A DNA stretch of 32,903 nt from an uncultured Lachnospiraceae bacterium (GTDB lineage: Bacteria; Bacillota; Clostridia; Lachnospirales; Lachnospiraceae). The position numbers and the translations under genes were made by a program. Of this stretch, positions 6,317-28,312 are shown piece by piece. The number at the start of each line of letters is the position of its first letter. Within the stretch, counting starts at the first letter, position 1. The stretch lies in NCBI GenBank assembly GCA_902788555.1, contig CADAKQ010000033.1, forward strand, positions 1-32,903. Reading direction: 5' to 3'. The notes under the pieces were generated by a model that was not told the origin of the DNA, ran no database searches, and worked only from the letters and a program-made list of their open reading frames with translations.

Positions 6317-6330
6317 ATACGCTTAGCATA

Positions 6331-6577
6331 CAGACTAAAATCTCTCTTACCTTATTTAAGTCTGCATTGCTTCTAAAAATATGCAGACTAAATCTACCCT
6401 TACCTCATTTTAGTCTGCACCGTTTCTAAAAAAATACAGACTAAAATCTCTCTTACCTTATTTAAGTCTGCATCGTTTCTAAAAATATACAGACTAAAAT
6501 CTCTCTTACCTCATTTTAGTCTGCATCGCTTCTAAAAATATACAGACTAAAATCTCTCTTCCTTAAATTTAGTCTGT
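6331..6577. repeat. Tandem array of five 53-bp hairpin units
   Basis: Units begin at 6331, 6384, 6437, 6490 and 6543, an exact 53-bp period. Each has inverted ends CAGACTAAA and TTTAGTCTG (or TTTAAGTCTG) around a CTCTCTTACC core, then a conserved 18-nt linker close to CATCGYTTCTAAAAATATA. The linkers are alike, so this is not a CRISPR array. It lies between the promoter of the surface-protein gene and fold-back copy 2. Confidence 0.9.
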
Positions 6578-9077: not shown

Positions 9078-10461
9078 TTTTACACTCCTCTTCTAAATCG
9101 GCTAAAGCAGCCTTTATCATAATTGCACATTCGACACGCTTTTGCTGCATCTTACAGCCGATGTCATATGTATCAAGTATACCGCCACTGTAAAGGTAAG
9201 AATTAGCGGCACATCCACCGCTACAATAAAATCTTGCAAAGCAGTCCTTACATTTATCCTTGGCATATACATTGCAAAGCTTGAATTCATTTACAACCTC
9301 AGTATTATCAATTCCGTCAAATACGGTTCCAAGCTTAAAACCATCTATACCAACAAACTGATGACACGGATATAGCTCACCCTGCGGTGTAACCGCCAGA
9401 TATTCCGTTCCCGAACCACAGCCTGAAAGTCTTTTATAGACACATGGTCCTCCATTTAAGTCAAGCATATAATGGAAAAATGTTATCGGTTTTCCTTTTT
9501 TATGTCTTTCTATGATATCAAGTGCAAGCTTGTCATATTCCTCAAAAATCTTCGGCAGGTCTTCCTCACGTATGGAATAATCCTCTGTAGGTGCCGCAAC
9601 AACCGGCTCTATGGAAATCTCATCAAATCCCAAATCTGCCATTTCCTCAAAATCGGAAAAGAAGTCAAGATTATTTCTTGTAAATGTACCTCTTACATAA
9701 TAGCTCTTGTCACCACGCTTTTTGACGAATTTTTTAAATTTCGGGACTATTATGTCATAGCTTCCCTTGCCATTTCTTGTAGGTCGCATAAGGTCATTTA
9801 TACATTTACGACCGTCTAAGCTTAAAACGACATTGGATATTTCCTTATTACAAAACTCTATAACATCATCATCCAAAAGTACTCCGTTGGTCGTAAGAGT
9901 AAATCTGAAATTCTTGTTAAATTCCTTCTCCTTACTTCGTCCGTAAGCAACAATTTCCTTTACTACTTCGAAATTCATAAGTGGCTCGCCGCCGAAGAAA
10001 TCAACCTCAAGATTAACACGGTTTCCGGAATTTTCTATAAGAAAGTCTATAGCCTGTTTACCTACCTCAAGACTCATAAGCTCACGCTTCTGTCCATGAT
10101 ATTCACCCTCATCCGCAAAGCAGTATTTACAGGCAAGGTTACAATCATGTGCTATATGAAGGCACAGGGCCTTGACCACTGTTTTTCTCTTTTTAAAATC
10201 AATAATGACATCTTTATATACATCCTCTGTAAATAGCTGTCCGCTTTCCTTAAGCTCCTCTATATCAGAGTATGCCTCGTAGATGTCATATTCCGAATAC
10301 TTATCACCATACTTTTCCATGATTGAAGCTGCTATCTTTTTTCTGTCAGCTTTCTCAAACATCGCAATCATATCATACACAAGCTCGTCCACCACATGAA
10401 CGGAGCCACTGCATACATCAAGAACGATATAGTATCCGTTGTTGATATACTGATAAACCAT
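9064..10461 (-). CDS. scfB: SCIFF radical SAM maturase (thioether-forming)
   Basis: The 465-residue enzyme belongs to the radical SAM/SPASM maturases that install thioether cross-links in the SCIFF peptide. Residues 1-90 form a small N-terminal recognition-type domain. The [4Fe-4S]-SAM motif CNLACKYC uses C107, C111 and C114; FFGGEP follows near 155. The C-terminal half has the SPASM-type auxiliary cluster cysteines: GPCVYKRLSGCGSG, YPCHQF, then CNVYAKDKCKDCFARFYCSGGC and a final pair in IGCKMQQKRVEC. The start at 10461 has a TTAGGAG site. It lies 101 bp downstream of its substrate gene scfA and overlaps secDF. Length and motif set match the SCIFF maturase family well, so substrate assignment is firm, while the biological role of mature SCIFF peptides is unknown. 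Confidence 0.96.
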   Translation of the reverse strand: MVYQYINNGYYIVLDVCSGSVHVVDELVYDMIAMFEKADRKKIAASIMEKYGDKYSEYDIYEAYSDIEELKESGQLFTEDVYKDVIIDFKKRKTVVKALCLHIAHDCNLACKYCFADEGEYHGQKRELMSLEVGKQAIDFLIENSGNRVNLEVDFFGGEPLMNFEVVKEIVAYGRSKEKEFNKNFRFTLTTNGVLLDDDVIEFCNKEISNVVLSLDGRKCINDLMRPTRNGKGSYDIIVPKFKKFVKKRGDKSYYVRGTFTRNNLDFFSDFEEMADLGFDEISIEPVVAAPTEDYSIREEDLPKIFEEYDKLALDIIERHKKGKPITFFHYMLDLNGGPCVYKRLSGCGSGTEYLAVTPQGELYPCHQFVGIDGFKLGTVFDGIDNTEVVNEFKLCNVYAKDKCKDCFARFYCSGGCAANSYLYSGGILDTYDIGCKMQQKRVECAIMIKAALADLEEECKNEES

Positions 10462-13813: not shown

Positions 13814-16800
13814 CTATTCACGTTCTCTTCTTTTTATCGCGAAGAGTATTCCGCCGCCTGCTGCCAGAATTCCGGCTGCGACAACAAGCCAGAGCCACCA
13901 ATGACCTGTCTTATTTTTAACCACATCCGTAACTGATGCAGCAACACTTTCATCACCATATACAAAGCTTATAGTATTTTCGTCTTCATTTCCCGCCTCA
14001 TCATAAGCTTTCATATAAAGCTCGTATTTGCCTCTTTCAGTTACATTTACGGTAGCAACATTATTCTTAATTACAACATCCTTACCGTTTAAGGAAACCT
14101 TATCAAGCGTATCCTCATCAAGCTGCAGAGAAACCTCTATATTGTAATTATCGTCCTTAATCTCTCCATCCTCAACCCCTGTCACGATAAATACCGGAGC
14201 CTTTGTATCAAGGACGAAGGTAACGCTCTTCTCACTTGTATGTCCAAGCTCATCTACAGCAGTTATGAGCAAGGTGTATGAACCATCCTCGATTTCAGCA
14301 AGTCCGTCATATTCACTACCATTCAGGTACATTCTGACTTCGCATACCGTAAGGTCCGTTACAAGATTGTCAAGGTCTATCTCATCAAGGTCTATCTCCC
14401 TAAATGACTTACCGTCATACATTGACAAATCCCCGATAACAGGAGCTGTCTTATCTATGGTAAAATGCACACTGCTTGACGACTCATTGCCCGCTATATC
14501 CCTTGATACAATTATTATATCATATATTCCATCTTCCGTAAATGTATCATTAATAGAAGTAGGATTTGCAGCCGCAGCAAATGGTGAGAAGCTTATCTGT
14601 GTCTTCTTACCGTCTATACCGGTTCTTGTACCTGATATCGATACCGTCTTATTGGAATAAAACTCATCCGTAATAACCGCAGATATACTAACCTCTCCGT
14701 CTGTTACGTCATAATTTTTTACACCTGTCAGCTTTATCTCCGGCTTGTTTCTGTCCACGGTTAGCGTCTGGCTTGCAGTTGCCGTATGACCTACTCTGTC
14801 ACTTGCCTCAAATTCAAATTTATAAACACCGGTTTCTGATATAACCTCAGAAATTGAGTAAAGGCGTGATGTCGGCGTTACATTTATAGTCTTGTAAACT
14901 TCCTCCTCAACTCCGTCTCCGGCTTTTCTTTTGATAGTTACGGTTCCCTTTGCATCCATCCAAAAGGCTTCATTTATACTAAATGTAACTGTAGAAGCAC
15001 TTGCAGAGGTTCCGCCTCCGGCACCTGTTATACTAATCTCCGGAGCAGCCTTATCCACTCTGAAGCTTATGGTTCTTGTCGTGCCCTGATTATTAGCAAG
15101 GTCAACTGCAAATATATTGACAGTATAATCCGCTTCATCGGAGAAGGTAAAGGTTCTTTCTCCGGTGGAAACAAATTCAGAGGTCTGAGTCTCCGTATCA
15201 GGAACTGTCTTAATAACCTGAACTCTAAGGTCTGCCGTGTCTTCATTGGTATCCGTTACTGAAACTCCCAGAGTAAGTGGTCCTGTAAGGTTAAGTGTTC
15301 CCATGCTCTCATTATAAATCGAAGTACCATTCATAAGAAGCGCAACTGTCGGAACTGTCTTATCTATAACAAATACACCCTGTCTTGGCAAAGCCGTTGT
15401 TCCTGCCTTGTCAAAGCCATTGACATACATATTGTGTATGCCTTCTGACGTTACGGTAATGTCCGTGTACCAAATGCCATTTTCATTCTTCCACTCGGCA
15501 TTTACAGGTGTACTATTGTCGGTCACTGACATTCCGTCCACATTGAAGTTATTGTCAACACAGGTAAATCTTATAACAACATCCGAATTATAATATCCGT
15601 TTTCTTTTCCGGAAGCGCCGCTTATTATCTCTGCATTTAATACAGGGGCGGTATTGTCAATATCAAATTTAACTGTCCTTATAAGACTGGCATTGTTCGC
15701 CTTATCAACTGCCATATAGTTAAGCGTATATTCTGCCTCATCGGTAAATGTAAATTCTCTTTCTGATGTAGGATCATAATTGGAAATGCTTGCTTCCTGT
15801 CCCGGAACAGTTTTGATAATCTGCATTCTCAAATCAGGTACATCTTCATTTACATCTGTTACAATAGCATTTACCTTTACCGAACCGCTCATATAACGTG
15901 TACCCATGCCCTCATTGTAAGCCTCATCATTAAGAGTAAGCTCAAGTCCCGGCACGGTTTTATCAATTATAAAGGATACATTTTTTGTCGCCCCGAAAAG
16001 ACCCGCCGTATCAACTCCGCCTATTCTTATGTCATGACCACCTTCTGAAGTTTCCGGAATCGTTATGGTTCCTACTCTTATACCGTCTTCAATTTGCCAG
16101 CTATTGTCAAGAGAAACAGCCTGACCGTTATCGGTTATACTAATCTTATCCGAATCAAAGTTATTGTCATCTACGGTAAGCCTTACAGTTACAGCAGTAT
16201 TATAATAACTGTTGTTTTTAACTGAGCTGCCGCTTACTATATCTGCCGTAAACATCGGAGGTGTATTATCAATAGCAAATCTTATCTCCTTTTCAGCAGC
16301 ACTGTTGCCGGCCTTATCCTCTACACTTAGCTTAACCTTATAGTTACCGTCCGCCGGCTCACTGCCTATAATCTCCGATATCTTATAGCTCTTAGACATT
16401 GATATGTTTTTTTCTTCTGAGTCCGCATCGGCTATATCATAGGTCTTTGTCGTTCCATCAGGAAGACTAACTGTAAATGTTGCTTTTCCCAAAGTTAAAT
16501 TATCAGAAAAGCCTGCCGCTATACTCGGATCACCTGCAAGCGGTATGGTATTTTCTTCATTTCCTGCTGCAGTAAGTGAATCAATAACAGGATTAGTTGC
16601 ATCGACCTTGATTGTAAATGATATAGGAATCATACTGTTTGTAGCACTATCTGTTGCTGAAAATGTAATGGTCGTACCGCCTACATTGTTAGACTCCGGA
16701 ATATCAATCAAGTCCGATTTATATGTCTCTGTACCATTAAGGGCATAGTTTTTGCTTGTTACATCCACACCGGCATCCGTACCTGTAATGGTATATCCTG

Positions 16801-19204
16801 CTGCCGTAAGAGGTGACTCAGTATTTTCCTTACCTGACCAAATAGTAAAGCTAAAAGGATATGACTTATGCCATTCATTATCAGTCGTAATCTCCGAATT
16901 AACATCTGCTCCTCTAACTATAGGAAGTGTTGAGTCATACATTAAAAGTCTTATGCTTTGTTCCTTTGTAGGATGAGCAGCGAGTTCATCATTTGCATAT
17001 ACCTTTAAATCATTAAATAATGTATTTAATTTTTCTTTCGGTATATAAAATGTAGATTCAACCGAATACAACTTCGTTACGGGATTAACCACCAAACCCG
17101 TATATGTCTTGGAATCGAGATAACCGGAATTATCTTTTATACCAACCTCAGTTATAGGACTTCCTGATGAAGTTGTAAACGTCAATTTATACTGTTTATT
17201 CGAATACAATGCAACACTGTCACTGTTTAAGTCACTTATATTACCATTGTTGATAATTATGTTACCATTTTCATCTTCAAGTTTTACATTGGTAAATCTG
17301 ATTTCCGAATTAATTACACATATTTTTGTTAATCCACCTAATTCCGTTTCATTCCCTGCGTTATCGGTAACCTTAATTTTATAATCAACTACCTCATTCA
17401 GGTTTTGACTACTATACGGTATTGCAACAGAATAGTATCCAACAATAGGTCCTTCATTTAAACTACCAACTTCATCATCCCCACGCATCAATTTTGCTGA
17501 TGCTATTCCTGAACCACCTACATCCTCCAATTTTACTCTATAGTAAATAGTTTTTGGATAATCTTTATTGACATTATATATACCATCTGAAATTTCAGCA
17601 GCGTCAACCTCAGGATATTCACCGTTATCAGTATTAAGATAAACCAACTTTACTGAATCACCTTCAACTATCTTAGGCTTATGTCCATCAATTTTTAATG
17701 TACCTGATATCTGTGTTATATTACCCTCAGTATCAGTTGGATCAGTTTGGCTGATTGCTTTATCGTAAGCATATAATGTAATCGAATACTCTCCATCGGC
17801 ATCTTCTATATTTTTATTAACTATCTTATGTATCTTTTTATTAATAGATGCTGATGTATCATTAATATCTTCTCCAAAAAGCTCTGTACCACCTTCCTTT
17901 ACGGATATCCTTTTTAACTCTATTGCATCATTAGCTGTAATTAAAACATCCGCATCTGGCTTAAACCATGTTCCTGCTGCAGATGTAAGTGGTGTTCCTC
18001 CGATTGTCATAGCCAGATCTGACGGAGCACTTTTATCCACACGTACGGTTACCGCTTTATCCAACTTATTCTCCGCCATATCCTCAATATGAAATGTAAT
18101 CGTTGTTCCCGCCGACGAAGCCGATTGAGGTACATCTATTGTTCCTGTTGCAGCAACAGGAAAATGAGTATTATCTCCAGTGACTGTATAATACGAATTA
18201 ACATAATTTATATTTGATTCATTACCATCAGAACCCGAGCTTATACTATATTTATAGTTATATACTTTATAGGTATTAGCTTTATCATCTAACCAGTCTG
18301 CATCAGGAGTTTCAGTTATTGTCGGTTCCGTAACATCATAGCAAAGACTTCCCAATGTAAATGAGCCTGTATATCCATCTATTATAGGAGTAATACTCAA
18401 ATCTCCATAACTACGATTGACCAATTGTTCTTCAACATTCGTATTGTTTGAATCAAAATCATAAATATAAGTATATGTATATGAACAAGTCTGAGCATCA
18501 TAGCTGTCAGTATCAACATCAGTCATTTCGTCTGTAGTAAGCACATGATCAAGAACCGTCAATCCATTCATTGTTTTTACGGATGTAACAGTAACTATCA
18601 TCTTACTTTCTTTTTTGGCATAATAATGATTGCCAGCTTCTACATCTGTTCCGTCTAAGCTTGCACTAATTGTCGTAGCAGGTGCTACATCTATTTGAGT
18701 AGGAAACTCTCCCAATTCTTTTTTTTCGTTTTGTTCGGCTTCATTTTCGTTATATGTCACGCTAATATACCAATTATTAGTACCGGCAAGTTCACCTTTT
18801 GTAACCTGAATCATATATCCTGTCTTATCATCAGACGTTACTATATTATCAGCAAGACTAAAAGTCCCATTTTCTCCATCTTTGCTAAATTGAACAGAAC
18901 TAACTTCTGTACCATCATTTTTCAAAACTATATATGCATATTGTCTTCCGTCCTCAAAGGTTGCTATGGAGGAAGTGCTGTCTACCGATTGCCATCCATT
19001 TCCGCCAATAACAATTTTTCCAGCTTCTGTTCCGCTTCCTCCTGCCGGAAGATAATACATTCCAACACTTACAGGAGCACCATCCGCCTTCGCATCATAC
19101 CTTTTCTCAAAATGAAAATATAGAGTTGTTCCAACCATGATAAACGTAAGCACAACTGCAATTATTCTATAAAGCAGGCTTGTTTTCTTCCAGTTTTCTT
19201 TCAT
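13814..19204 (-). CDS. Giant Ig-like repeat surface protein, membrane-anchored at the C-terminus
   Basis: The 1796-residue protein has an N-terminal hydrophobic segment (9-30) followed by AKA-DG, a possible signal peptidase site after residue 40. The body is a string of bacterial Ig-like domains, recognisable by recurring D-x-T/A-x-P linkers (VDKSAPS, IDNTPPMF, IDKTVPGL, IDNTAPVL, IDKTAPVI) and A-x-D-x-A-G-N strand ends. Residues about 983-1184 and 1185-1384 are two copies of one 200-residue double domain. The C-terminus is a membrane helix (HWWLWLVVAAG..., about 1768-1790) with a basic KRRERE stop, so the large part lies outside the membrane. No LPXTG or enzyme motif is seen. It starts 15 nt after the scaffold gene with an AAAGGAG site and is last in the kinase/FHA operon. 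Adhesion or wall-spanning sensing is my inference. Confidence 0.9.
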   Translation of the reverse strand: MKENWKKTSLLYRIIAVVLTFIMVGTTLYFHFEKRYDAKADGAPVSVGMYYLPAGGSGTEAGKIVIGGNGWQSVDSTSSIATFEDGRQYAYIVLKNDGTEVSSVQFSKDGENGTFSLADNIVTSDDKTGYMIQVTKGELAGTNNWYISVTYNENEAEQNEKKELGEFPTQIDVAPATTISASLDGTDVEAGNHYYAKKESKMIVTVTSVKTMNGLTVLDHVLTTDEMTDVDTDSYDAQTCSYTYTYIYDFDSNNTNVEEQLVNRSYGDLSITPIIDGYTGSFTLGSLCYDVTEPTITETPDADWLDDKANTYKVYNYKYSISSGSDGNESNINYVNSYYTVTGDNTHFPVAATGTIDVPQSASSAGTTITFHIEDMAENKLDKAVTVRVDKSAPSDLAMTIGGTPLTSAAGTWFKPDADVLITANDAIELKRISVKEGGTELFGEDINDTSASINKKIHKIVNKNIEDADGEYSITLYAYDKAISQTDPTDTEGNITQISGTLKIDGHKPKIVEGDSVKLVYLNTDNGEYPEVDAAEISDGIYNVNKDYPKTIYYRVKLEDVGGSGIASAKLMRGDDEVGSLNEGPIVGYYSVAIPYSSQNLNEVVDYKIKVTDNAGNETELGGLTKICVINSEIRFTNVKLEDENGNIIINNGNISDLNSDSVALYSNKQYKLTFTTSSGSPITEVGIKDNSGYLDSKTYTGLVVNPVTKLYSVESTFYIPKEKLNTLFNDLKVYANDELAAHPTKEQSIRLLMYDSTLPIVRGADVNSEITTDNEWHKSYPFSFTIWSGKENTESPLTAAGYTITGTDAGVDVTSKNYALNGTETYKSDLIDIPESNNVGGTTITFSATDSATNSMIPISFTIKVDATNPVIDSLTAAGNEENTIPLAGDPSIAAGFSDNLTLGKATFTVSLPDGTTKTYDIADADSEEKNISMSKSYKISEIIGSEPADGNYKVKLSVEDKAGNSAAEKEIRFAIDNTPPMFTADIVSGSSVKNNSYYNTAVTVRLTVDDNNFDSDKISITDNGQAVSLDNSWQIEDGIRVGTITIPETSEGGHDIRIGGVDTAGLFGATKNVSFIIDKTVPGLELTLNDEAYNEGMGTRYMSGSVKVNAIVTDVNEDVPDLRMQIIKTVPGQEASISNYDPTSEREFTFTDEAEYTLNYMAVDKANNASLIRTVKFDIDNTAPVLNAEIISGASGKENGYYNSDVVIRFTCVDNNFNVDGMSVTDNSTPVNAEWKNENGIWYTDITVTSEGIHNMYVNGFDKAGTTALPRQGVFVIDKTVPTVALLMNGTSIYNESMGTLNLTGPLTLGVSVTDTNEDTADLRVQVIKTVPDTETQTSEFVSTGERTFTFSDEADYTVNIFAVDLANNQGTTRTISFRVDKAAPEISITGAGGGTSASASTVTFSINEAFWMDAKGTVTIKRKAGDGVEEEVYKTINVTPTSRLYSISEVISETGVYKFEFEASDRVGHTATASQTLTVDRNKPEIKLTGVKNYDVTDGEVSISAVITDEFYSNKTVSISGTRTGIDGKKTQISFSPFAAAANPTSINDTFTEDGIYDIIIVSRDIAGNESSSSVHFTIDKTAPVIGDLSMYDGKSFREIDLDEIDLDNLVTDLTVCEVRMYLNGSEYDGLAEIEDGSYTLLITAVDELGHTSEKSVTFVLDTKAPVFIVTGVEDGEIKDDNYNIEVSLQLDEDTLDKVSLNGKDVVIKNNVATVNVTERGKYELYMKAYDEAGNEDENTISFVYGDESVAASVTDVVKNKTGHWWLWLVVAAGILAAGGGILFAIKRRERE

Positions 19205-19219: not shown

Positions 19220-20107
19220 CTATAAGCTCTCATCTGTATTAACAACTACAATATCATATATGTATCTTATTCCGTCTTTTGAATCTTTTATATCATCAGT
19301 TGAAAGAACCGTTGTTGCTTCATCCTTATCATCTGTCAGAACGGTTGTTACATCTTCATCTTCTGTATCTTCATTTCTGAGTATATCTGTTTCGCCGTCA
19401 GCATCAAAATCGCTTTCCTCATCTTCTTTTCTCAAAACATCTGTCTCAGCATCCGGGTTGAAGTCATTCTCTCCATCTACTGCTCTCAAGACATCCGTTT
19501 CAGCATCCGGGTCAAAGTCTGCTTCATCTCCTGCCCTCAAGACATCTGTTTCGGCATCCGGATCAAAGTCTGCTTCATCTCCTGCCCTCAAGACATCTGT
19601 TTCGGCATCCGGGTCGAAATCTGATTTTCCTTTCTCCATTAGGACATCCGTTTCAGCATCCGAATCAATGACTTCAGTATCCGAACCGCCGAGTACTGTC
19701 GTTTTTTCCTCGCTATCGTAATCAGGAATTTTTGCAGTTACCGGGATGTCATCCTCATCGCCGGGTCTTAAAATGTCTGTCTCTCTCTCCGGCGCTTCGA
19801 CCGCCTTGGCATCAGCTTTTATATTATCCGTTACTTCCTCATTCGTAGCAGAATCCCTCACGGTTATTTTGCCGGTACCCTGATTGTAGTATTTTTTCTT
19901 TTCCTCTCTTGACAGTCTGCTTGATGTAGTGTCGCTTCCGCCTCGTTTTTTCTTCTTCTCCGCAATCTCACGACGTGCATTTCTTCCTGTCAAATCACCG
20001 ATTACCTTCGGTATCTTAAATACTGCAAATAAAACTATACTGGTTATCAGTAAGATTATGGCGAGTGTCAGTCCGCCATAAAAGCATATTTTATATACAC
20101 CTTCCAT
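19220..20107 (-). CDS. Single-pass membrane protein with ten T-[DT]-[VI]-L repeats (putative FHA-docking scaffold)
   Basis: I prefer the ATG at 20107 (295 residues; AGGAG site upstream) over a GTG at 20116 that overlaps the kinase stop. One membrane helix (about 8-31) is followed by basic KIPK...RNARREIAEKKKKRG, which puts the remaining 255 residues in the cytoplasm. That tail is very acidic and carries ten motifs: ETDIL, KTTVL, five AETDVL, GETDIL, VTTVL and ATTVL. Three central units are near-identical 17-residue repeats (DFDPDAETDVLRAGDEA, 51 bp). Thr with Leu at +3 in acidic context is what some FHA domains bind once phosphorylated. The gene lies directly between the kinase and the giant surface protein. 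I know no named family for it. The scaffold role is inference from motif and neighbours. Confidence 0.85.
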   Translation of the reverse strand: MEGVYKICFYGGLTLAIILLITSIVLFAVFKIPKVIGDLTGRNARREIAEKKKKRGGSDTTSSRLSREEKKKYYNQGTGKITVRDSATNEEVTDNIKADAKAVEAPERETDILRPGDEDDIPVTAKIPDYDSEEKTTVLGGSDTEVIDSDAETDVLMEKGKSDFDPDAETDVLRAGDEADFDPDAETDVLRAGDEADFDPDAETDVLRAVDGENDFNPDAETDVLRKEDEESDFDADGETDILRNEDTEDEDVTTVLTDDKDEATTVLSTDDIKDSKDGIRYIYDIVVVNTDESL

Positions 20108-20112
20108 AGCTA

Positions 20113-22293
20113 TCACTCTCCTATCTCTTCTGTATCATCCGAGGTATCGTCGGATTCATTTTCCATATCCTGTGAATCGTCCTGTTTTTTCAGCGTTCCC
20201 TCGACAAGCGATTTTACCGTATCTTTTCGTTTTTTCCAGGTTTTGTTGCTGTCTATGGAAGGAACATCTGAGCCCTCATTGTATACGCTTATCAGGTCGG
20301 CAAGCTCATCCGGACATACATTTGACCAGTATGCCGGGTCCTGATTTATATTTTCACAATATGTATATATATAATCCAGATGTTCGGCATATACCTTATT
20401 GCTAAGAACATTCTTTGTACCGAATACCGACTCAATATCTTTGTACATATTTACGGCATTATCATATTCACCCATCTGCTCATAGCAATATGCCTTTTTC
20501 ATCGTCTTGTTGTAATAGCCGGTATTGAAAATGTTATCATATTCGCCGCCATAGCCTATCTCCCCATTTTCCTCAACCTTTATATCGAGTATGGTAAGAT
20601 AATCATCGCAATAGGCTATAACCTCTTCATAGTATGTATGCTTCACACTTTCCTCTTCGGATATCTTGGCCAACTGTTCATTTATAACTGAAAGATTATC
20701 ATAATATGCATAATAATAATCGTTGGTATCAAGCTTCGTTCCGGTATACTCGTCAAGGTCATCTACCGCCTGTGTCATTATGGTTTCTGCCTGCTTTGCA
20801 ACACCCTCGGTATTTATATATGTAGCATATATCTGTCCTATGGTTTTGTAGTTAATAAATTTGTTTTCATTCTGATTCGTATATTCACGCTGATTATATT
20901 CGGCAAAATCATTTATCTTTTCAAGCAGCTCATCAATATTTACCGTAGTACTTGAAAGTATAAGTGATACAGAGCCATAATATTCTGCAAGTTCTCCAAA
21001 GTCCTTATCCTTTTTGTCGACCATATTAAAATACTTTGTTGCCGTCTTGTAATCATTTAATTCTACAAAATATGTAATTGCCATTTTATACAGCACTTCA
21101 TCATTTTTATCGACACCACTGTAGCCGGACTTTATTCTGTTTGCAATGACATTAAGTCCGGTGTTTAAGTCTAATGGCGTAGTTCCATCCTCATTTATCT
21201 CGTGTGATGCATCTATATAGGTCTGTATAAATTTATCATACGCTTCTGCATCCGAGCCATCCAGTTCAAATGCCTTTTTATATTCATCTACCGCATTTTC
21301 ATAATCTTCTTCTATCTTATAATCATTTCCTGCCTCTATGTAGGAATTATAAGTATCCATCTTTATCTTCTGCAGTCCCGAATATCCAAATATAGCTGTT
21401 ATGGCTGCCGCAACCGTAAGTACTGAAGTTGTTATAAACAGCCCAAGCTTTCTCTTATTTTTCTTTTTATAGGAATCATCCAACTCGGTGTAATGTTCAA
21501 GGTCATATATAAGCTCAGAACAGTTCTGATATCTTTTTGCGGGATTGTCCTCCGTACACTTAAGAAGTATTTTTTCAAGTCCCGAAGAAAGCGAAGGATT
21601 CATTTCCCTTATAGGATGAACACCATATGGCGGGTCGCAAGGATTATTTCCCGTTACAATATGGTAAAGTGTTGCTCCGAGATTGTATATATCCGTTCTC
21701 GCATCAGTATTGTAGATTCCTCTTCCCTGTTTATCTCCAAACTGCTCCGGTGCCGCATATCCTCTCGTTCCGAGAGCCGTTGTATCTGCATTATTTTCTA
21801 CATCGTATTCTTTTGCAGTTCCAAAATCTATAAGCTTTACTCCGCCCTCCGGCTTTATCATAACGTTGGACGGCTTCATGTCTCTGTATATAACAGGCGG
21901 ATTCATATTGTGAAGGTAGTCCAAAGCTCCGGCTAATTGTATACCCCATTCCACAACTAAATCCTGAGGCTGTGCGCCCTCTTTTTTTAGTCTTTCGCTT
22001 ATGGTTTCTCCTTCGATAAAGTCCATAACAACGTATATCGTATTGTTCTGGTTTATTATATCAACTATTCTCGGAAGAACCGGATGGTCAACATTTTTCA
22101 GTATATTTGCCTCTCGCTCAAGTCCCTTGAGGAGTGTCTTTGCAGACTTTGAGCCATCATTTTTTATCTCCTTAACAGCCCATTGCTTATTGAGTCTGTT
22201 ATCTCTGGCAAGATAAACTATTGACATGCCACCTCTGCCGACTTCTTTCCATATTTCGTATTTACCGTCTAAAACAGTACCTTCCTTTGTCAT
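20113..22293 (-). CDS. Transmembrane Ser/Thr protein kinase with extracytoplasmic TPR-like region
   Basis: Residues 11-270 are a complete Hanks-type kinase domain: glycine loop GRGGMSIVYLA, Lys K41 in WAVKEIK, catalytic YRDMKPSN (D138), DFG at 156-158, activation loop ADTTALGTRGYAAPE and TDARTDIYNLG. A basic stretch and one membrane helix (283-305) follow. The outside part (306-690) is helical with TPR-like pairs, for example DYENAVDEYKKAFELD and EYDNAVNMYKDIES, instead of the PASTA repeats of PrkC/Stk1. The C-terminus is a short acidic tail. The activation-loop DTTALG resembles the KTTVLG motif of the neighbouring scaffold, which fits a shared phosphorylation preference. It lies 22 nt after the PP2C gene. 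All catalytic residues are present, so it should be active; the outside ligand is unknown. Confidence 0.95.
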   Translation of the reverse strand: MTKEGTVLDGKYEIWKEVGRGGMSIVYLARDNRLNKQWAVKEIKNDGSKSAKTLLKGLEREANILKNVDHPVLPRIVDIINQNNTIYVVMDFIEGETISERLKKEGAQPQDLVVEWGIQLAGALDYLHNMNPPVIYRDMKPSNVMIKPEGGVKLIDFGTAKEYDVENNADTTALGTRGYAAPEQFGDKQGRGIYNTDARTDIYNLGATLYHIVTGNNPCDPPYGVHPIREMNPSLSSGLEKILLKCTEDNPAKRYQNCSELIYDLEHYTELDDSYKKKNKRKLGLFITTSVLTVAAAITAIFGYSGLQKIKMDTYNSYIEAGNDYKIEEDYENAVDEYKKAFELDGSDAEAYDKFIQTYIDASHEINEDGTTPLDLNTGLNVIANRIKSGYSGVDKNDEVLYKMAITYFVELNDYKTATKYFNMVDKKDKDFGELAEYYGSVSLILSSTTVNIDELLEKINDFAEYNQREYTNQNENKFINYKTIGQIYATYINTEGVAKQAETIMTQAVDDLDEYTGTKLDTNDYYYAYYDNLSVINEQLAKISEEESVKHTYYEEVIAYCDDYLTILDIKVEENGEIGYGGEYDNIFNTGYYNKTMKKAYCYEQMGEYDNAVNMYKDIESVFGTKNVLSNKVYAEHLDYIYTYCENINQDPAYWSNVCPDELADLISVYNEGSDVPSIDSNKTWKKRKDTVKSLVEGTLKKQDDSQDMENESDDTSDDTEEIGE

Positions 22294-22315
22294 AACTATT
22301 CCTTCCCATATATAA

Positions 22316-23089
22316 CTATGCCGTTTTTATCAGCCCGACCGTTATATTGTCTGTTTCCCTTCTCTGTTTAACAAGCTCCGTAAGATATATACAGCCGTTC
22401 TTCATGCCATTTTCGTCCTTAACACTGTTCGGCCCGATTTTTTCCAGCATCTCGTCTTCCGTTATCTGGTGTCTGAATCCGTCTGAGCATATCATATATA
22501 CGGTGTTTGGCATAATTACTCCCGTGGAAAACTCCGGCTCAACAACATTGGACGCGCCTACACACTGAAGAAGCACACTTCTTCTCGGATCAGTCTTTGA
22601 CTGTTCAACCGTCATCCTCCCCGCTGCTATCTCTCTTGCTATAAAGGTCTGGTCTTTTGTAAGCTGATATACATAATTATTTGTCATCTGATATATTCTA
22701 CTATCTCCGACATGTACAATATGATATTTATCCTTAAATAGTAAAATCGCAGTTATGGTTGTTCCTAACTGAAGATGGTTTTCACTGCCGTAATCTCCCA
22801 GTCTTTTATTTTGTTTCTGTATAATCTCATTCCACTGCCCGTTTAAGCTTTCTTCATCAAATGTATTATTTCTTACTTCCTCTACAAATGTTCTGTCAAA
22901 CCAGTTTAAAAAAGCAAGAATCACTTCTTTACTTGCAAGCTCTCCTTTGGCAAGTCCGCCCATTCCATCGCAAACAATCCCAAATGCAGCCTGTCCAAGG
23001 TCTGTTTCGATAATCTTAATACCCAATGAATCCTGATTTGTTTTCTTTGTTAAACCAACATCCGTATGATAAGCAGCTATATAGTTCAT
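22316..23089 (-). CDS. PP2C-family Ser/Thr protein phosphatase
   Basis: The 257-residue cytosolic protein has the metal-binding motifs of PPM/PP2C phosphatases: TNQDS (D20), CDGMGG (D41), VHVGDSRIY, CSDGFRHQI and the final RRETDNITVG. The bacterial flap LTKDQTFIAREIAAG and the DPRRSVLLQCVG segment are also present. It should reverse phosphorylation made by the kinase encoded immediately downstream, the usual PrkC/PrpC type pairing. The start at 23089 has an AGGAG site. A possible internal promoter lies 50-75 nt upstream, so the phosphatase, kinase, scaffold and giant protein may form a sub-operon apart from the FHA genes. Confidence 0.95.
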   Translation of the reverse strand: MNYIAAYHTDVGLTKKTNQDSLGIKIIETDLGQAAFGIVCDGMGGLAKGELASKEVILAFLNWFDRTFVEEVRNNTFDEESLNGQWNEIIQKQNKRLGDYGSENHLQLGTTITAILLFKDKYHIVHVGDSRIYQMTNNYVYQLTKDQTFIAREIAAGRMTVEQSKTDPRRSVLLQCVGASNVVEPEFSTGVIMPNTVYMICSDGFRHQITEDEMLEKIGPNSVKDENGMKNGCIYLTELVKQRRETDNITVGLIKTA

Positions 23090-23136
23090 CGCATTCTCCT
23101 ATAGTACAAATTATCCTTTTGTTTCGCTCAATACCA

Positions 23137-23165
23137 ACTATAAAATGTATGTTTTAAATAAGCAA
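23137..23165 (-). promoter_or_regulatory. Possible internal promoter before the PP2C gene
   Basis: On the minus strand TTGCTT (23160-23165), 17 nt, TATAGT (23137-23142). The -35 is weak. It lies in the longest gap of the operon, just after the hairpin at 23170-23195. Confidence 0.3.
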
Positions 23166-23169
23166 TCCA

Positions 23170-23195
23170 GCCGGATTTTATGAAAACAAAATCCG
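23170..23195. terminator. Hairpin after the first FHA gene
   Basis: Arms AGCCGGATTTT and AAAATCCGGCT make a perfect 11-bp stem. The T run (ATAATTTTTTTATT) follows it on the plus strand, so as an intrinsic terminator it points against the genes. In the sense (minus) direction it lacks a U run and may only slow or protect the mRNA end between the FHA and phosphatase genes. Confidence 0.55.
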
Positions 23196-23207
23196 GCTAT
23201 AATTTTT

Positions 23208-25268
23208 TTATTCTTTTCTAAGCAGGAAGGTAAACTCCTCATCGCCCATTCTTACAGAGGTTCTGTTTTTAAGCAATACCTCCTTATCAGGCTCAAGTAA
23301 TTCTCCGTTTACATATGTATGATTAGTTGAATTATTATCTTTTATATAATTCACTCCATTTTTTTGTAATATAATACAATGTACTCTGCTTATGGCGGAA
23401 TTGTCTGTTATAGTATAATCCGCTTTTGACTCTGATTTTCCTATAGAAAATTCCGGCTTGGTTATGTTTATTATTTCTCCGGTTTTTTCTCTTACAAAAT
23501 GAGGTACCGGCTTTGTTCCAAGCTGTCCCACAAGTGCTCCCATCGAAGGCTCAGGAATTTCCTTCTTTATCGGAGGTGTTATATCACCCTTTATCTCCTC
23601 TGTCGGCTGTGTGTCCACGAAAGGCTTAGCTTCATTTGTTTTATCATCCGGAGCAATCTTTGCCTCAGGTATTTCTTCAACCTTTATCTCCTCTTGTGGC
23701 ATAGCAGCATTATTTTCCTCAGTCACCGGACTATCCGTTTTTTTCTCTTCCTCCTGTCCCATCATCGGCGGTACTCCCGGCTTTATCCCTATCGGTGATT
23801 GTCCCTGTGGCGATATCTGCTGTGAACCTGACTGATTTTGCGGAGCCTGCTGTGGACTAGACTGATTCTGTGGAGCCTGCTGTAGATTCGGCTGTCCCTG
23901 CGGTGGCACCTGTCCCATCATCGGCGGTACTCCCGGCTTTATTCCTACCGGCGATTGTCCCTGTGGCGGTATCTGCTGCGGATTTGGCTGATTTTGCGGA
24001 GCCTGCTGTGGACTAGACTGATTCTGTGGAGCCTGCTGTAGATTCGGCTGTCCCTGTGGCGGCACCTGTCCCATCATAGGCGGTACTCCCGGCTTTATCC
24101 CTATCGGTGGCTGTCCCTGTGGCGGTATCTGCTGTGGATTTGGCTGATTTTGCGGAGCCTGCTGTGGCCTAGGCTGATTCTGTGGAGCCTGCTGTGGATT
24201 CGGCTGTCCCTGTGGTGGCACCTGTCCCATCATAGGCGGCACTGCCGGCTTTATCCCTACCGGCGACTGTCCCTGTGGTGATATCTGCTGTGGCATCTGC
24301 CCCGGTTGTCCCATCATCGGCTGTCCCTGCGGTGGCATCTGTCCCGGTTGTCCCATCATCGGCTGTCCCTGTGGTGGCATCTGTCCCGGTCTTCCCATCA
24401 TCGGTTGTCCCTGTGGCGGCATCTGTCCCGGTCTTCCCATCATCGGTTGTCCCTGTGGTGGCATCTGTCCCGGTTGTCCCATCATCGGCTGTCCCTGTGG
24501 TGGCATCTGTCCCGGTTGTCCCATCATCGGCTGTCCCTGTGGTGGCATCTGTCCCGGTCTTCCCATCATCGGCTGTCCCTGCATAGGTGGTCTTTGCTGT
24601 GAGTTATGCATATTGCTCATAACACCAAGCCTGTTTACCTTAACATCCTTGCTTTGACCTGCTGCTCCACCTGCATTGACACTTGTTAAGCCCTTTTCCC
24701 TGCTTATAAACAAGCCCATTTTTTCAAGTTCTTCATCTATATATTGTTTTAATTTTAAAGTGGCAAAATCCTTTGAATTAATGATAGTAAGAAGCTTCGC
24801 AACATAATTGTCCATATCTATCTCGTCAAATGACATCCTTGATATAACACTTCTGAAAAATTCAGGTATTTCAGACAAAGCTATAGCCTCCTGTTTCACA
24901 GGAACTAAGATGCATTTTGTCCTTAATGTTTCTTCATTGACATAAATGTGGTTATAATCCTTAACTACGTAGCTTACAGGTATTCCCTGTGATCCGATGT
25001 CAAATATTGACACCAATTCTCCCAAAAGACATAACACCTCTCTTTTTTGCAAGGTCTTTGAAAAAAGCATTTCGAGAGTATATGTTTCTCTTACATATGT
25101 TGTCAATATTCTTTTTCCGTCCTGATCTGAAAACTGAAATGGAATAACATTTATGAGCTGGCTTAATCTGTCTGCAACCCTCTCATCATATTCTTCATTT
25201 CCCAGCAACTCGTATCTTATTACGTCACACCCGTTTTCCTTAGATACCGACAATTCGATTTTTTTCAT
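23208..25268 (-). CDS. FHA-domain protein with DUF6382-like N-terminus and Pro/Gln/Gly repeat linker
   Basis: The 686-residue protein has three parts. Residues 1-185 are a globular domain of the kind found N-terminal to FHA in Clostridia (I recall it as DUF6382), with IYVNEETLRTKCILVPVK and NYVAKLLTIINSKDF. Residues 215-505 are low-complexity: seven 14-residue units (QGQPMMGxPGQMPP), then three longer units of about 52 residues (PQGQSPVGIKPGVPPMMGQ ... QQAPQNQ). An acidic stretch leads to a C-terminal FHA domain (585-686) with the phosphothreonine-binding residues in place: FSIGKS, ISRVH and NSTNHTYVNG. There is no membrane segment, so it should be cytosolic and able to read phosphorylated Thr. 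It is the paralog of the next gene upstream. The start has a GGAGG site. Confidence 0.92.
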   Translation of the reverse strand: MKKIELSVSKENGCDVIRYELLGNEEYDERVADRLSQLINVIPFQFSDQDGKRILTTYVRETYTLEMLFSKTLQKREVLCLLGELVSIFDIGSQGIPVSYVVKDYNHIYVNEETLRTKCILVPVKQEAIALSEIPEFFRSVISRMSFDEIDMDNYVAKLLTIINSKDFATLKLKQYIDEELEKMGLFISREKGLTSVNAGGAAGQSKDVKVNRLGVMSNMHNSQQRPPMQGQPMMGRPGQMPPQGQPMMGQPGQMPPQGQPMMGQPGQMPPQGQPMMGRPGQMPPQGQPMMGRPGQMPPQGQPMMGQPGQMPPQGQPMMGQPGQMPQQISPQGQSPVGIKPAVPPMMGQVPPQGQPNPQQAPQNQPRPQQAPQNQPNPQQIPPQGQPPIGIKPGVPPMMGQVPPQGQPNLQQAPQNQSSPQQAPQNQPNPQQIPPQGQSPVGIKPGVPPMMGQVPPQGQPNLQQAPQNQSSPQQAPQNQSGSQQISPQGQSPIGIKPGVPPMMGQEEEKKTDSPVTEENNAAMPQEEIKVEEIPEAKIAPDDKTNEAKPFVDTQPTEEIKGDITPPIKKEIPEPSMGALVGQLGTKPVPHFVREKTGEIINITKPEFSIGKSESKADYTITDNSAISRVHCIILQKNGVNYIKDNNSTNHTYVNGELLEPDKEVLLKNRTSVRMGDEEFTFLLRKE
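23770..24240 (-). repeat. Three tandem 156-bp coding repeats in the FHA gene
   Basis: Each unit encodes about 52 residues running from PQGQSPVGIKP through VPPMMGQVPPQGQP to two or three QQAPQNQ blocks. The units are highly similar at DNA level, with the third partial, so copy number may vary between strains. Confidence 0.8.
24290..24585 (-). repeat. Seven tandem 42-bp coding repeats in the FHA gene
   Basis: Each unit encodes QGQPMMG[QR]PGQMPP. DNA copies are nearly identical, differing mainly at the Gln/Arg codon (TTG or CTT on the plus strand). In-frame gain or loss would change linker length by 14 residues per unit. Confidence 0.9.
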
Positions 25269-25335: not shown

Positions 25336-27180
25336 TTATCTTATTTTAAATAAGAATTCTTCATCCCCAAGTCTTATAATTGAATCATGTGTCAATATTT
25401 CTTCTTTACCTTCTTCTACTTCCTTATCATTCACATACGTATGATTTGTAGATTTATTGTCCTTTATATAACATACTCCGTCCTTTTGTGTTATAACAGC
25501 ATGTTGTCTGCTTACTGCACCATTTCCGCTTACCGAGTAGTCAACACCTCTTGAAGCCTTACCTATTTTGAAGGTTGCCTTGTTAAGCATAATTCTTTCT
25601 TCGGTATTTACTCTGATAAGGTACGGCATAGCCTTTGGCGCATTAAGAAGTGTATTCACTTTTTGAGCCTCTGCCGGTTTTTCGTTTTCAACGGGTTCAT
25701 CCCTGTGCTCAGATTTTGCATTTTCAAGTTCTTCCTCTGAAAGCTCTGCAGTCTCCGCCTCATGCTCTGCTATACTTTGTATAATTGCAGCTCTATTAAC
25801 CTTAACCACGTTCTTTTTAGGTGTATTTTTTCCTGCATCAAGCATATTGGAAAGGTCTTCCAATGTTTTGACAGTCTTAGAATCATCATTTGTTGTTTTG
25901 GCCTGTGGAACATCTCCAACGAGCTGTTTTATCTTATTCTTTATTACATCCAAATCTTCTTCCTTCTTGGCAGGAGCCGACTTTACAGCTTCAGGTTCGG
26001 ATATGAATTCAAGCTTTGCCTCAGACTCAGGTGTTTCCTTCTTTTCCTGTTTAGGTTTCTCGTCGCTATTTTCTTCAGGAGCCGGTTCAATCACATTCTC
26101 CACTGCAATCTCAGGTATATGCTCAGGCTCTTTATCTGCGGACTGAGCTTCTATTGTTTCTTTCTCCTGAGCTTCAGAAACCTTATCTATATCTTCTATA
26201 GCATTTTCTGCCTTTTCTACATCAGCCGGTGTTTCTGCCTTATCCGGTGCTTCAGATGCAGTATCCTCTTTTATATCAGGTACAACATCTTCCATGGCAG
26301 GCTCTTTAGCTTCCGCAACAGGCTCAGCAGGTTCAGCCTTTTCACTTGCCGAATCTTCTGATTCCTTCTTCGACGTTTCCTCTATCTTCATGCCTGCAGG
26401 CAATATGCTTTCAAGCTCCTCAGAATCCTCTTTTTGTACATCCTCCGAAACCTTTTCAGGTTCTTCCTCTTCATCATCACCTATCTCAGGAAGCGGAACA
26501 TCGTCTGCATCACTCATAAAGTCGGTCACTGAGCTTTCCGGTTTTACTTCCTCCTCCGGCTCAGTGCTTACTACTTCAACGCCCTCTGTTTCTATGGTTC
26601 CGGCTTCCTCATAATCTATACCGGCTTCTTCCATAAGGGCTTCCGTAAGTCCGATTAATCCTCTAAGGTTAAAGCTGTCACTATTGATGTAGGTAAGCAA
26701 CTTTCCAACATAGTTTAAATCCTCATCAACATTATATTTCATATTGGCAAGAAGCTGTCTTAAAAAGCCTTTAAACTCTACCGAGAGCGAGCCCTTATTT
26801 TCTATAGGTACACAGATAAAAAATATATCGTTGTTATCTCCCACATAGACATATTCTCTGTTTAATAAAATATAAGAAAGATGTATCGCCTGTTCCTTTA
26901 TGGATATAAGATTTCCGGCTACATTTCTTACAATAAACAATGCCTGCTCACCACTTATCTCCTCCGAAATAAGTTCACTCAAAGATTTTTTATCAGTAAT
27001 ATCATATGTGAGATAATCATAGTCATCATCTTCCTCATAGATAATGTCTATCAATTCCTTAACATTATTTTCTTCACAATAATCAAGTACATCCTCATCA
27101 AGCTCCGTTTCTTCCCCCATTGTATAGGTCAAATATTTTTCTTGGCCTATATTTCTTGCCTTGAAATAAAACGTTCTCAT
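25336..27180 (-). CDS. FHA-domain protein with DUF6382-like N-terminus and long acidic linker
   Basis: The 614-residue protein is built like its neighbour. The N-terminal domain (1-190) shares the pattern YVYVGDNNDIFFICVPIE and NYVGKLLTYINSDSFNL with the first FHA protein. The linker (about 195-510) is Glu/Ala/Lys/Pro-rich and acidic, without tandem repeats, and includes a helical stretch EHEAETAELSEEELENAKSE. The C-terminal FHA domain (515-614) keeps the binding residues FKIGKA, VSRQH and KSTNHTYVN. There is no signal or membrane helix. The two linkers differ strongly in composition, so the paralogs probably recruit different partners to similar phospho-sites. It starts 40 nt after mltG with a GGAGG site and is likely co-transcribed with it. 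Confidence 0.92.
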   Translation of the reverse strand: MRTFYFKARNIGQEKYLTYTMGEETELDEDVLDYCEENNVKELIDIIYEEDDDYDYLTYDITDKKSLSELISEEISGEQALFIVRNVAGNLISIKEQAIHLSYILLNREYVYVGDNNDIFFICVPIENKGSLSVEFKGFLRQLLANMKYNVDEDLNYVGKLLTYINSDSFNLRGLIGLTEALMEEAGIDYEEAGTIETEGVEVVSTEPEEEVKPESSVTDFMSDADDVPLPEIGDDEEEEPEKVSEDVQKEDSEELESILPAGMKIEETSKKESEDSASEKAEPAEPVAEAKEPAMEDVVPDIKEDTASEAPDKAETPADVEKAENAIEDIDKVSEAQEKETIEAQSADKEPEHIPEIAVENVIEPAPEENSDEKPKQEKKETPESEAKLEFISEPEAVKSAPAKKEEDLDVIKNKIKQLVGDVPQAKTTNDDSKTVKTLEDLSNMLDAGKNTPKKNVVKVNRAAIIQSIAEHEAETAELSEEELENAKSEHRDEPVENEKPAEAQKVNTLLNAPKAMPYLIRVNTEERIMLNKATFKIGKASRGVDYSVSGNGAVSRQHAVITQKDGVCYIKDNKSTNHTYVNDKEVEEGKEEILTHDSIIRLGDEEFLFKIR

Positions 27181-27220: not shown

Positions 27221-28312
27221 CTAATAATTATCTACCTCATCCTCAGGTATACCATTCGGACCACCTATAATTTGGGTATCTATATGTTCCTCATAGGTCT
27301 CCGTAAATACATGTGAGCCCTCCTCCTCATTATCAACATGGTAATAGTAATATCCATGTTCCTGAGGATACAGCACTGCATTTATACAAGCAAGACCCGG
27401 ATTACATATAGGTCCCGCAGGAAGTCCCGTGTATTTGTATGTATTGTATGGCGAATCAAGTTCAAGATCCTCATAGTAAACCTTGCTTTGGTCATACATT
27501 CCGTCAGTAAGAGGATATAATACTGTCGGACACATCTGAAGCGGCATATCCGCACTAAGTCTGTTATTCATTACTCCCGCTATGATAGAACGTTCTTCCT
27601 CTATCTTTGCCTCACGTTCTATGATAGAGGCTCTTGTTACAACCTCAAAGGAATTATATCCAAGCTCCCCGGCTCTTTGCTGCAAATCCATGGTATAATT
27701 ATTTTCAAATGTTTCAAGCATCCATTTAACCAGAGATTCAGCAGTAGTATATTCGTATATATCATAGGTTGCCGGGAATATATATCCCTGAAGTCTGTAT
27801 TTAACCGCCGCGCCGGCAGGTACATCAGCAAGATATGGGAAATCTTCTGTTGTTACGGAATTAACCGCATTCAAAAAATCCTGCGCAGAGCATATACCCT
27901 GTTTTTCACATCTTGCCGCTATCTGTTCTATGGTAAATCCCTCCGGAATAACCAATGTATCTATCTTTTCATCTGCTTCTATAACAGGGCTCATGGTTAT
28001 AATCATATCAAGCGTGCTCATACCGGTATTTAAAGTATATGTACCGCTTTGGATACGATAATCCGTGCCTTGTAATCTTTTTACAAATGCATGTTCAAAC
28101 TGAATCAAACCTTTGTCCTTCAGTATAGATGCAATTTTTTTTGCAGCAGCTCCCTCAGGTATCTCTACAACGACATCCTCACCAACTGTTGTTGTTGTAC
28201 CCTTAAGCTCGTCCTGATATATATCATAATATCCTTTTCCATAATCGTATATAATTGAAAATAATGCGAATGTTGCAACTATAAGTATAATTCCTTTTAT
28301 GAATTTAATCAC
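27221..28312 (-). CDS. mltG: Endolytic murein transglycosylase MltG
   Basis: The 363-residue protein has an N-terminal membrane helix (6-23), a LysM-like subdomain and the YceG/MltG catalytic domain. The catalytic Glu lies in ASIIEREAKIEEE (about 230), followed by GVMNNRLSADMPLQMCPTVLY and the conserved GLPAGPICNPG. It cuts nascent glycan strands at the outer membrane face and sets their length. The start is GTG at 28312 with an AGAGG site 9 nt upstream. It is the first gene of the co-directional run leading to the FHA, phosphatase and kinase genes, a plausible functional tie because kinases of this type often control wall synthesis. Confidence 0.93.
   Translation of the reverse strand: MIKFIKGIILIVATFALFSIIYDYGKGYYDIYQDELKGTTTTVGEDVVVEIPEGAAAKKIASILKDKGLIQFEHAFVKRLQGTDYRIQSGTYTLNTGMSTLDMIITMSPVIEADEKIDTLVIPEGFTIEQIAARCEKQGICSAQDFLNAVNSVTTEDFPYLADVPAGAAVKYRLQGYIFPATYDIYEYTTAESLVKWMLETFENNYTMDLQQRAGELGYNSFEVVTRASIIEREAKIEEERSIIAGVMNNRLSADMPLQMCPTVLYPLTDGMYDQSKVYYEDLELDSPYNTYKYTGLPAGPICNPGLACINAVLYPQEHGYYYYHVDNEEEGSHVFTETYEEHIDTQIIGGPNGIPEDEVDNY

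Follow-up and report, generated by a model that had tools for sequence, protein, structure and literature searches.

A kinase, a phosphatase and two FHA proteins beside a membrane-anchored tail repeating T-x-[VI]-L: a probable phospho-threonine dock in Lachnospiraceae

An acidic, predicted cytoplasmic tail that repeats the motif T-[DT]-[VI]-L ten times is encoded in a stretch of 32,903 nucleotides from an uncultured Lachnospiraceae bacterium (assembly GCA_902788555.1, contig CADAKQ010000033.1). This stretch, from here on called the window, is contig C33 of its own genome G000, a 2.70 Mb assembly that is 88.7% complete. The tail gene lies in a block that also encodes a membrane Ser/Thr kinase, a PP2C phosphatase, two FHA proteins and a giant immunoglobulin (Ig)-repeat membrane protein. 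From sequence comparisons with relatives we consider it probable that the kinase writes, the phosphatase erases and the FHA proteins read phosphate on the threonine of the motif, and that the tail is a many-site dock at the membrane. The block reads on the minus strand in the order mltG, FHA2, FHA1, PP2C, kinase, tail, giant Ig protein:

27221..28312, minus strand: mltG, endolytic murein transglycosylase, adjoining FHA2 upstream and a possible member of the module (TIGR00247, 218 bits)
25336..27180, minus strand: FHA2, 614 residues, with DUF6382, an acidic linker and a C-terminal FHA domain, no transmembrane segment (PF19909 1e-11, PF00498 8e-15)
23208..25268, minus strand: FHA1, 686 residues, with a DUF6382-like N-terminus, Pro/Gln/Met-rich repeats and a C-terminal FHA domain (PF00498 4e-15)
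22316..23089, minus strand: PP2C/PPM phosphatase, 257 residues, no transmembrane segment (PF13672 2e-9)
20113..22293, minus strand: membrane Ser/Thr kinase, 726 residues (PF00069, Pkinase, 6e-45)
19220..20116, minus strand: tail protein, with a short N-terminus, one transmembrane segment and an acidic, predicted cytoplasmic tail with ten T-[DT]-[VI]-L
19304..19780, minus strand: motif-bearing stretch of the tail protein, residues 113-271, delimited by the motif positions
13814..19204, minus strand: giant Ig-repeat membrane protein, 1796 residues (PF19077 and others)

The ten copies of T-[DT]-[VI]-L reported in the initial annotation are exact and lie at residues 113, 139, 156, 173, 190, 207, 225, 243, 257 and 268. 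When the cytoplasmic part was shuffled 20000 times, the pattern occurred 0.04 times on average and twice at most. The Leu codons of the ten copies differ (TTA, CTC, CTA, TTG, CTG and CTT), so the copies are not merely fresh duplicates, and the motif codons are diverse over 79 tails. Copies 173 and 190 are identical across the ten codons compared, and the gene contains a 51-bp repeat array (19431-19662). The tail protein has no match in Pfam, in NCBIfam or among PDB sequences. A genome-wide spread of the motif was considered and dropped: the ETDVL-coding pattern occurs 11 times in G000, five of them in the tail, and the other six equal the six of the reversed control.

For comparison we used 79 named loci, retrieved by a search with the tail alone, which together with the window give 80 tails, grouped by kinase length into 58 long (the window included) and 22 short. 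The named relatives are mostly metagenome assemblies of Lachnospiraceae, many of them from ruminant gut, with a few cultured strains. The form T-[DT]-[VI]-L holds for the window; the family-wide form is broader, T-x-[VI]-L. In the 58 long-kinase tails, with 2 to 15 copies per protein, T-x-[VI]-L occurs 444 times versus 9.3 expected from shuffles, whereas S-x-[VI]-L stays at chance (8 versus 7.4). The 22 short-kinase tails contain 43 copies versus 2.5 expected, and one Ser version versus 2.2. Matches within the kinase, such as FITTSVLT, fall in its transmembrane segment and were left out of the site counts.

The same motif was found in the readers of the short-kinase modules, in the linker, by which we mean the sequence preceding the FHA domain. 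Contig ends cut the linker in many loci, and linkers below 60 residues were excluded, which omits L183 (41 residues, no motif). At all 19 of the 22 short-kinase loci with a readable linker the motif is present, with 35 copies versus 1.6 expected and no Ser version versus 2.0. The 77 long-kinase FHA linkers have it at chance frequency (4 versus 2.8), and it was not found in FHA1 or FHA2 of the window. The linker start was marked by a model labelled DUF that was built partly from trypsin-type N-termini and whose scores are no evidence of DUF6382. A 30-row alignment of FHA proteins, 22% identical on average, shows the linker motif conserved almost to the degree of the FHA core: T275 is kept in 27/30 rows, L278 in 26/30, T286 in 23/30 and L289 in 27/30. 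Linker and tail also resemble each other in motif flavour, agreement being 0.50 within a locus versus 0.417 between loci (27 loci with both; 9 of 5000 shuffles reached as high a value, kinship not being removed).

FHA domains strictly require phospho-threonine, and pTxx[ILV] is a listed class of FHA ligands, according to the part of PMC8786283 drawn on here. The exclusion of Ser therefore fits the prediction that FHA domains recognize the motif, and because of this requirement and the Thr-only character of the motif the kinase-motif-FHA reading is a well-supported prediction.

Two side observations concern the same proteins. The final dozen residues of the tail (VVVxHTDExL type, window 19223-19258) are conserved in most long-kinase tails while the middle of the tail varies. 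This end, perhaps a second docking site, also occurs in two tails (genomes G023 and G027) linked to EssC, the defining ATPase of type VII secretion systems (T7SS), and less in other short-kinase tails. The long-kinase FHA linkers are enriched in D-x-[VI]-L (15 versus 3.4 expected) and N-x-[VI]-L (11 versus 2.0), mostly DSIL and NSIL, and not in E-x-[VI]-L (5 versus 8.3). FHA2 of the window has LESILPAGM in its linker; it and the DSIL and NSIL of relatives look like the motif with an acid or amide in place of Thr.

In the named loci the kinase adjoins the tail in 79/79, PP2C lies upstream in 78/79 and FHA upstream in 76/79 (52/54 where at least 4 kb upstream was available); where 3 kb or more could be read on the downstream side, 63 of 65 loci have a relative of the Ig protein there. 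The tail gene was found in 22/24 same-genus genomes besides its own, in 20/295 genomes of a sample of the order and in 14/391 of a sample of the class (own genome included in both; several matches in the class sample weak). A DUF6382 protein is encoded in 19 of the 20 tail-positive genomes of the order sample versus 121/295 overall, the exception, G244, having a doubtful 63-residue tail match. At the 17 loci outside the genus, the kinase stands beside the tail in 17, and PP2C was found in 15 and FHA in 10. Three modules of other families, which were retrieved once the motif was already defined, again show FHA-PP2C-kinase-tail in this order; their FHA proteins have two motifs each, and their tails 2, 1 and 0. 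mltG stands beside FHA2 in 9/9 same-genus loci where FHA2 was seen. Two FHA genes are not universal in the long-kinase group, since L150 has one despite 9.9 kb upstream.

Within the window the block genes are 15 to 118 bases apart, and the kinase stop and the tail start share a 4-base GTGA overlap. The initial annotation had set the system at 19220-25268; what it saw is borne out in part, and the interval leaves out FHA2 (25336-27180) and the giant Ig protein (13814-19204), both members of the conserved block. Its membrane kinase and PP2C beside a single-pass tail protein were borne out by Pfam matches, by catalytic and metal-site motifs and by the one transmembrane segment of the tail.

The kinase consists of a predicted cytoplasmic kinase domain, one transmembrane segment at 283-301 and a TPR-like outside part (weak TPR matches). 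Its catalytic motifs are intact (P-loop, AVKEI, YRDMKPSN, DFG and APE), as are those of the PP2C metal site (DGMGG, GDSR, CSDG and DNIT), judged by the patterns usual for such sites. Among PDB sequences PknB was the best match of the kinase (1e-32), and the phosphatase scored 155.9 bits with NF033484 (Stp1), under the cut-off of 230. The kinase had no PASTA match in Pfam; a separate 772-residue frame with three PASTA repeats is found elsewhere in G000 (C1:74073-74675). The dN/dS ratio (nonsynonymous to synonymous substitution rates) of the kinase domain is 0.007 against L119 and 0.011 against L121, rough values with dS near or beyond saturation. On this ratio of about 0.01 against two relatives, rough as it is, a decayed T7SS remnant was set aside. 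Anti-phage defence was likewise dropped, the PADLOC matches being confined to the kinase domain and generic in look.

The giant Ig protein begins with a signal or transmembrane segment (10-28), continues with Ig-like domains and ends with a transmembrane segment (1772-1790) and KRRERE. Past residue 60 the tail has 78 Asp or Glu versus 25 Lys or Arg, and by charge its C-terminus is inside. It had been proposed that tail, kinase domain and FHA proteins share the cytoplasm. By hydropathy and charge the tail, the kinase domain and the extreme end of the Ig protein are predicted to be cytosolic, and FHA2 is without a transmembrane segment.

The FHA domains had been described as having intact binding residues. 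The Ser, Arg and His of SRxH and the Asn are indeed kept in both FHA1 and FHA2, but the canonical Arg, the residue mutated as R30 in Fha of Agrobacterium tumefaciens (PMC3953482), is Lys; this Lys may well hold phosphate in the FHA pocket. The substitution was considered as a mark of kinase-linked readers and rejected, as 9/9 DUF6382-FHA proteins from stretches with no kinase also have it (ten such loci, of which L098 was left out, having no FHA match). The N-terminal part of FHA1 is 22% identical to that of FHA2 in the DUF6382 alignment and has no Pfam match; DUF6382 found no believable match among PDB sequences. Among related modules the N-terminus of the reader is swapped between DUF6382 and a trypsin-like part, while FHA and motif stay.

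Several side observations touch the readers. FHA1 contains tandem repeats (window 23753-24581), with a 42-bp PMMGQPGQMPPQ-type array and a 156-bp Pro/Gln array in its linker, and the complete FHA1 frames of relatives range from about 470 to 1045 residues. Readers with a trypsin-like N-terminus are encoded at L049:12629-14392 (minus strand), L106:5757-7325, L116:5423-6967, L102:1051-2976 and L186:5818-7425, and probably are transmembrane protease-FHA fusions, to go by their sequences. G000 encodes a third FHA protein (G000:C29, L043:4595-13637), a DUF6382-FHA protein with hydrophobic stretches and no motif, which stands beside Tad-pilus-like genes (leader peptidase, T2SSE, T2SSF and DUF5702). 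It is the one protein for which placement in a Tad locus was checked, and this sole Tad-linked FHA protein examined has Arg.

From these findings the following mechanism can be proposed. The kinase would sense via its outside part, possibly together with the giant Ig protein, and would phosphorylate the motif threonines of the tail, from which PP2C would strip the phosphates. FHA1 and FHA2 would dock, several at once, on the phosphorylated tail, and their N-terminal parts would thereby gather at the membrane, close to Ig protein and kinase. For the short-kinase modules GarA/OdhI offers a model: once phosphorylated, the linker motif could be taken up by its own protein, in cis, or by a second copy of it. 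In the group of the window, the readers may have lost the motif as its copies multiplied in the tail; what was a switch inside the reader would thereby become a multivalent dock at the membrane.

A number of observations weigh against this mechanism. Phosphorylation of the motif and its binding by FHA domains are predictions. The canonical FHA Arg is Lys in 105/109 domains aligned from PP2C-linked loci (60/62, 27/27 and 18/20 in the subsets), and a preference of the kinase for Thr could by itself explain the absence of Ser. Six of the 80 tails (L179, L180, L185, L188, L190 and L191) are without T-x-[VI]-L, and the tail of L214 has NETTLL alone; of these six loci, L188 has no FHA or PP2C gene adjoining the tail, and the other five carry the motif in an FHA linker. 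The tail must therefore have an additional role. Nor is the motif restricted to readers linked to a kinase: among nine DUF6382-FHA proteins whose short stretch shows no kinase, four have T-x-[VI]-L, in three cases preceded by an acid. The initial annotation had held that a scaffold often found without FHA proteins would refute the idea. The named loci and the tail-positive genomes of the order sample mostly agree with the dock, and exceptions are L215, where no FHA lies beside the tail, L188, and 7/17 loci outside the genus with no FHA gene in the fetched stretch, two of the seven at contig ends; those seven genomes encode a DUF6382 protein elsewhere, which may or may not be a reader. L182 has two tail motifs and no FHA was found within 7.4 kb upstream of its PP2C. 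Finally, the output of the module is tied to no named function; control of the cell wall or of surface adhesion is a guess, made because mltG lies upstream and the giant Ig protein has a signal sequence and a C-terminal transmembrane segment. On balance, the idea that phosphate is written, erased and read on the tail has gained partial support, the comparative side of it being strong: the motif is Thr-exclusive, linked to a kinase in all named loci and shared with FHA linkers.

The motifs could alternatively work as a switch or decoy of the GarA/OdhI type, in which phospho-motifs fill and shut the FHA pockets and the tail is a sink, not a dock. The OdhI/GarA precedent (PMC2784874) and the motif in the reader's own linker at every readable short-kinase locus speak for it; the readers of the window's group, with no motif excess, speak against it. 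There the motif, with 2 to 15 copies, belongs to a membrane protein distinct from the readers; this favours recruitment, and we regard the switch as rather unlikely. Docking by the repeats without any phosphate would resemble the FHA domains of EssC, which hold the pseudokinase EssB without phosphorylation in T7SSb, contacts presumed to be phosphate-free (PMC11217815, as far as drawn on here), and would suit FHA domains with Lys for Arg. A dock of this kind would hardly need Thr and reject Ser, yet Ser is not above chance at the place of Thr, and it would not account for a kinase at every named locus and a phosphatase at all but one; we think it very improbable. Neutral duplication of repeats, which would make the tail low-complexity sequence, could be read from the 51-bp array, the two identical copies and the variable copy number of the long-kinase group. 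It is contradicted by the diversity of codons, by T, V/I and L being kept across genera despite changing spacers, and by the presence of the same motif in FHA linkers, and is hardly credible.

The initial annotation knew of no described system with this set of proteins. This is wrong in part: the same kinds of protein are components of T7SSe and T7SSj (Garrett et al. 2024, PMC11217815, on whose main text these comparisons draw). T7SSe comprises TseD, TseF, TseH, TseI, TseJ and TseK; in T7SSj the kinase has a TPR part and TseH is absent. The module could thus be the control part of such a system, acting on a secretion ATPase whose gene lies elsewhere or in the 11% that the assembly lacks. EssC scored over the cut-off in 9/24 tail-bearing genomes of the genus and in 10 of the 17 outside it, with partial matches in two more (G306, 637 bits; G172, 206 bits). 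In G027 and G023 related sets with short tails stand beside EssC and have the motif in the tail and in the FHA protein, that of G023 being trypsin-type, not DUF6382. A search with the window tail alone gave a weak match (E 3.5e-4) to the single-transmembrane protein encoded at the EssC locus of G027; later matches of the tail profile to this protein are circular, since it sat in the alignment. Against a secretion-bound role, EssC (TIGR03928) gave in G000 a 110-bit match at the level of FtsK/SpoIIIE versus a cut-off of 778 bits, and WXG100 (PF06013) none at E 0.001, so by the defining ATPase the module is not a T7SS. Twenty-six genus genomes were tested for tail, EssC and WXG100; 15 of the 24 with the tail had neither EssC over the cut-off nor WXG100, several of them incomplete (71 to 91%), but also G006 (one contig, 99%), G011, G021 and G042 at 99-100% completeness. 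Four of the eight named genomes tested pass the EssC cut-off and the other four, including Eubacterium ruminantium ATCC 17233, a strain that carries the module (L161), have a match at the FtsK/SpoIIIE level only. Of the 35 named loci flanked by 9 kb or more on each side, one has EssC. In a quick tree the kinase clade of 58 rows that includes the window (Shimodaira-Hasegawa-like approximate likelihood ratio test, SH-aLRT, 100) has no row from an EssC-bearing stretch. YukD (PF08817) was found in 0/17 genomes and, being missed even in the EssC-bearing G023 and G027, is uninformative. We consider control of a distant secretion ATPase unlikely.

Beyond the dock itself we tentatively put forward, as possible rather than probable, a phospho-threonine scaffold that stands alone, independent of secretion, with T7SSe as one user. 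It would be a graded multivalent dock with up to 15 FHA sites, perhaps a membrane condensate, whose occupancy would report an outside signal via kinase and Ig protein; in one lineage the motif would have moved from linker to scaffold.

Some features of the window lie outside this argument. A 14-pair inverted repeat with a weak T tail between FHA1 and PP2C (23168-23199) is a possible terminator or processing site; a scan for promoters and terminators gave counts close to the level of shuffles (58 versus 47.5 and 11 versus 9.5). Positions 2-1268 hold fragments of an IS21-type element (Mu-transposase C-terminal domain and IstB-like ATPase). Intergenic arrays are a perfect TGAAC repeated 19.8 times (2817-2915) and a 53-bp unit repeated 4.4 times (6328-6560), and a gene for a SCIFF peptide maturase (9064-10461; TIGR03974, 772 bits) adjoins secDF.

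Pairs of a PASTA kinase and an Stp phosphatase are known, for example those of PrkC and StkP. The window resembles these pairs in the kinase-domain and phosphatase families (NCBIfam and PDB matches) and differs from them in that its kinase is without a PASTA match.

By its kinds of protein the module is plainly akin to the control part of T7SSe/T7SSj (PMC11217815). It shares with them the membrane kinase (TseD; TsjD with a TPR part), the PPM phosphatase (TseF), the DUF6382-FHA protein (TseJ) and, as a kind of protein, a single-transmembrane protein with an unstructured cytoplasmic part (there TseK or TseH); TsdI is, like the Ig protein of the window, a giant with signal peptide and C-terminal transmembrane segment, and TseI is its T7SSe counterpart. 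The window differs in that no TseC ATPase or WXG100 was found, in its two FHA proteins and in its long tail with ten motifs. The parts of the main text of Garrett et al. drawn on here do not mention the motif, and in the open-access literature searched (subscription papers and the supplements of that paper excluded) nothing beyond that paper was found on the motif, on DUF6382 or on such a module. The motif T-x-[VI]-L and the control set standing alone appear to be undescribed.

The type VI secretion system (T6SS) of A. tumefaciens comes close to the proposal: in the PpkA/Fha/TssL pathway, as given in the part of PMC3953482 used here, a kinase writes phospho-threonine on the cytoplasmic part of a membrane protein and an FHA protein reads it, the phosphopeptide of TssL being DLPpTVVEI. 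It differs in having a single site, on a subunit of the secretion machine, and no homologous scaffold. No T6SS genes were among the window proteins scanned against Pfam. GarA and OdhI (PMC2784874, in part), whose own N-terminal phospho-threonine is bound by their own FHA domain, are matched by the linker motif of the short-kinase modules; they are small metabolic regulators with no membrane tail, unlike the window, whose FHA proteins are without the motif. The TQXF repeats of MDC1, which are bound by the FHA domains of RNF8 and Pellino (PMC11884936, in part), parallel the tail in that a single scaffold bears several phospho-threonine motifs, each with a constant hydrophobic residue at +3, although MDC1 is an animal DNA-damage protein and common descent is not implied.

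Garrett et al. considered that kinases, phosphatases and FHA proteins possibly regulate the new T7SS types, with no targets named in the text drawn on here (PMC11217815); T-x-[VI]-L now names likely phosphosites for such regulation. In Lachnospiraceae of gut and rumen, and in relatives of theirs, this control set is found separate from the secretion machine too. If the proposed module is true, it would be a bacterial case of many-site phospho-threonine scaffolding of the MDC1 kind.

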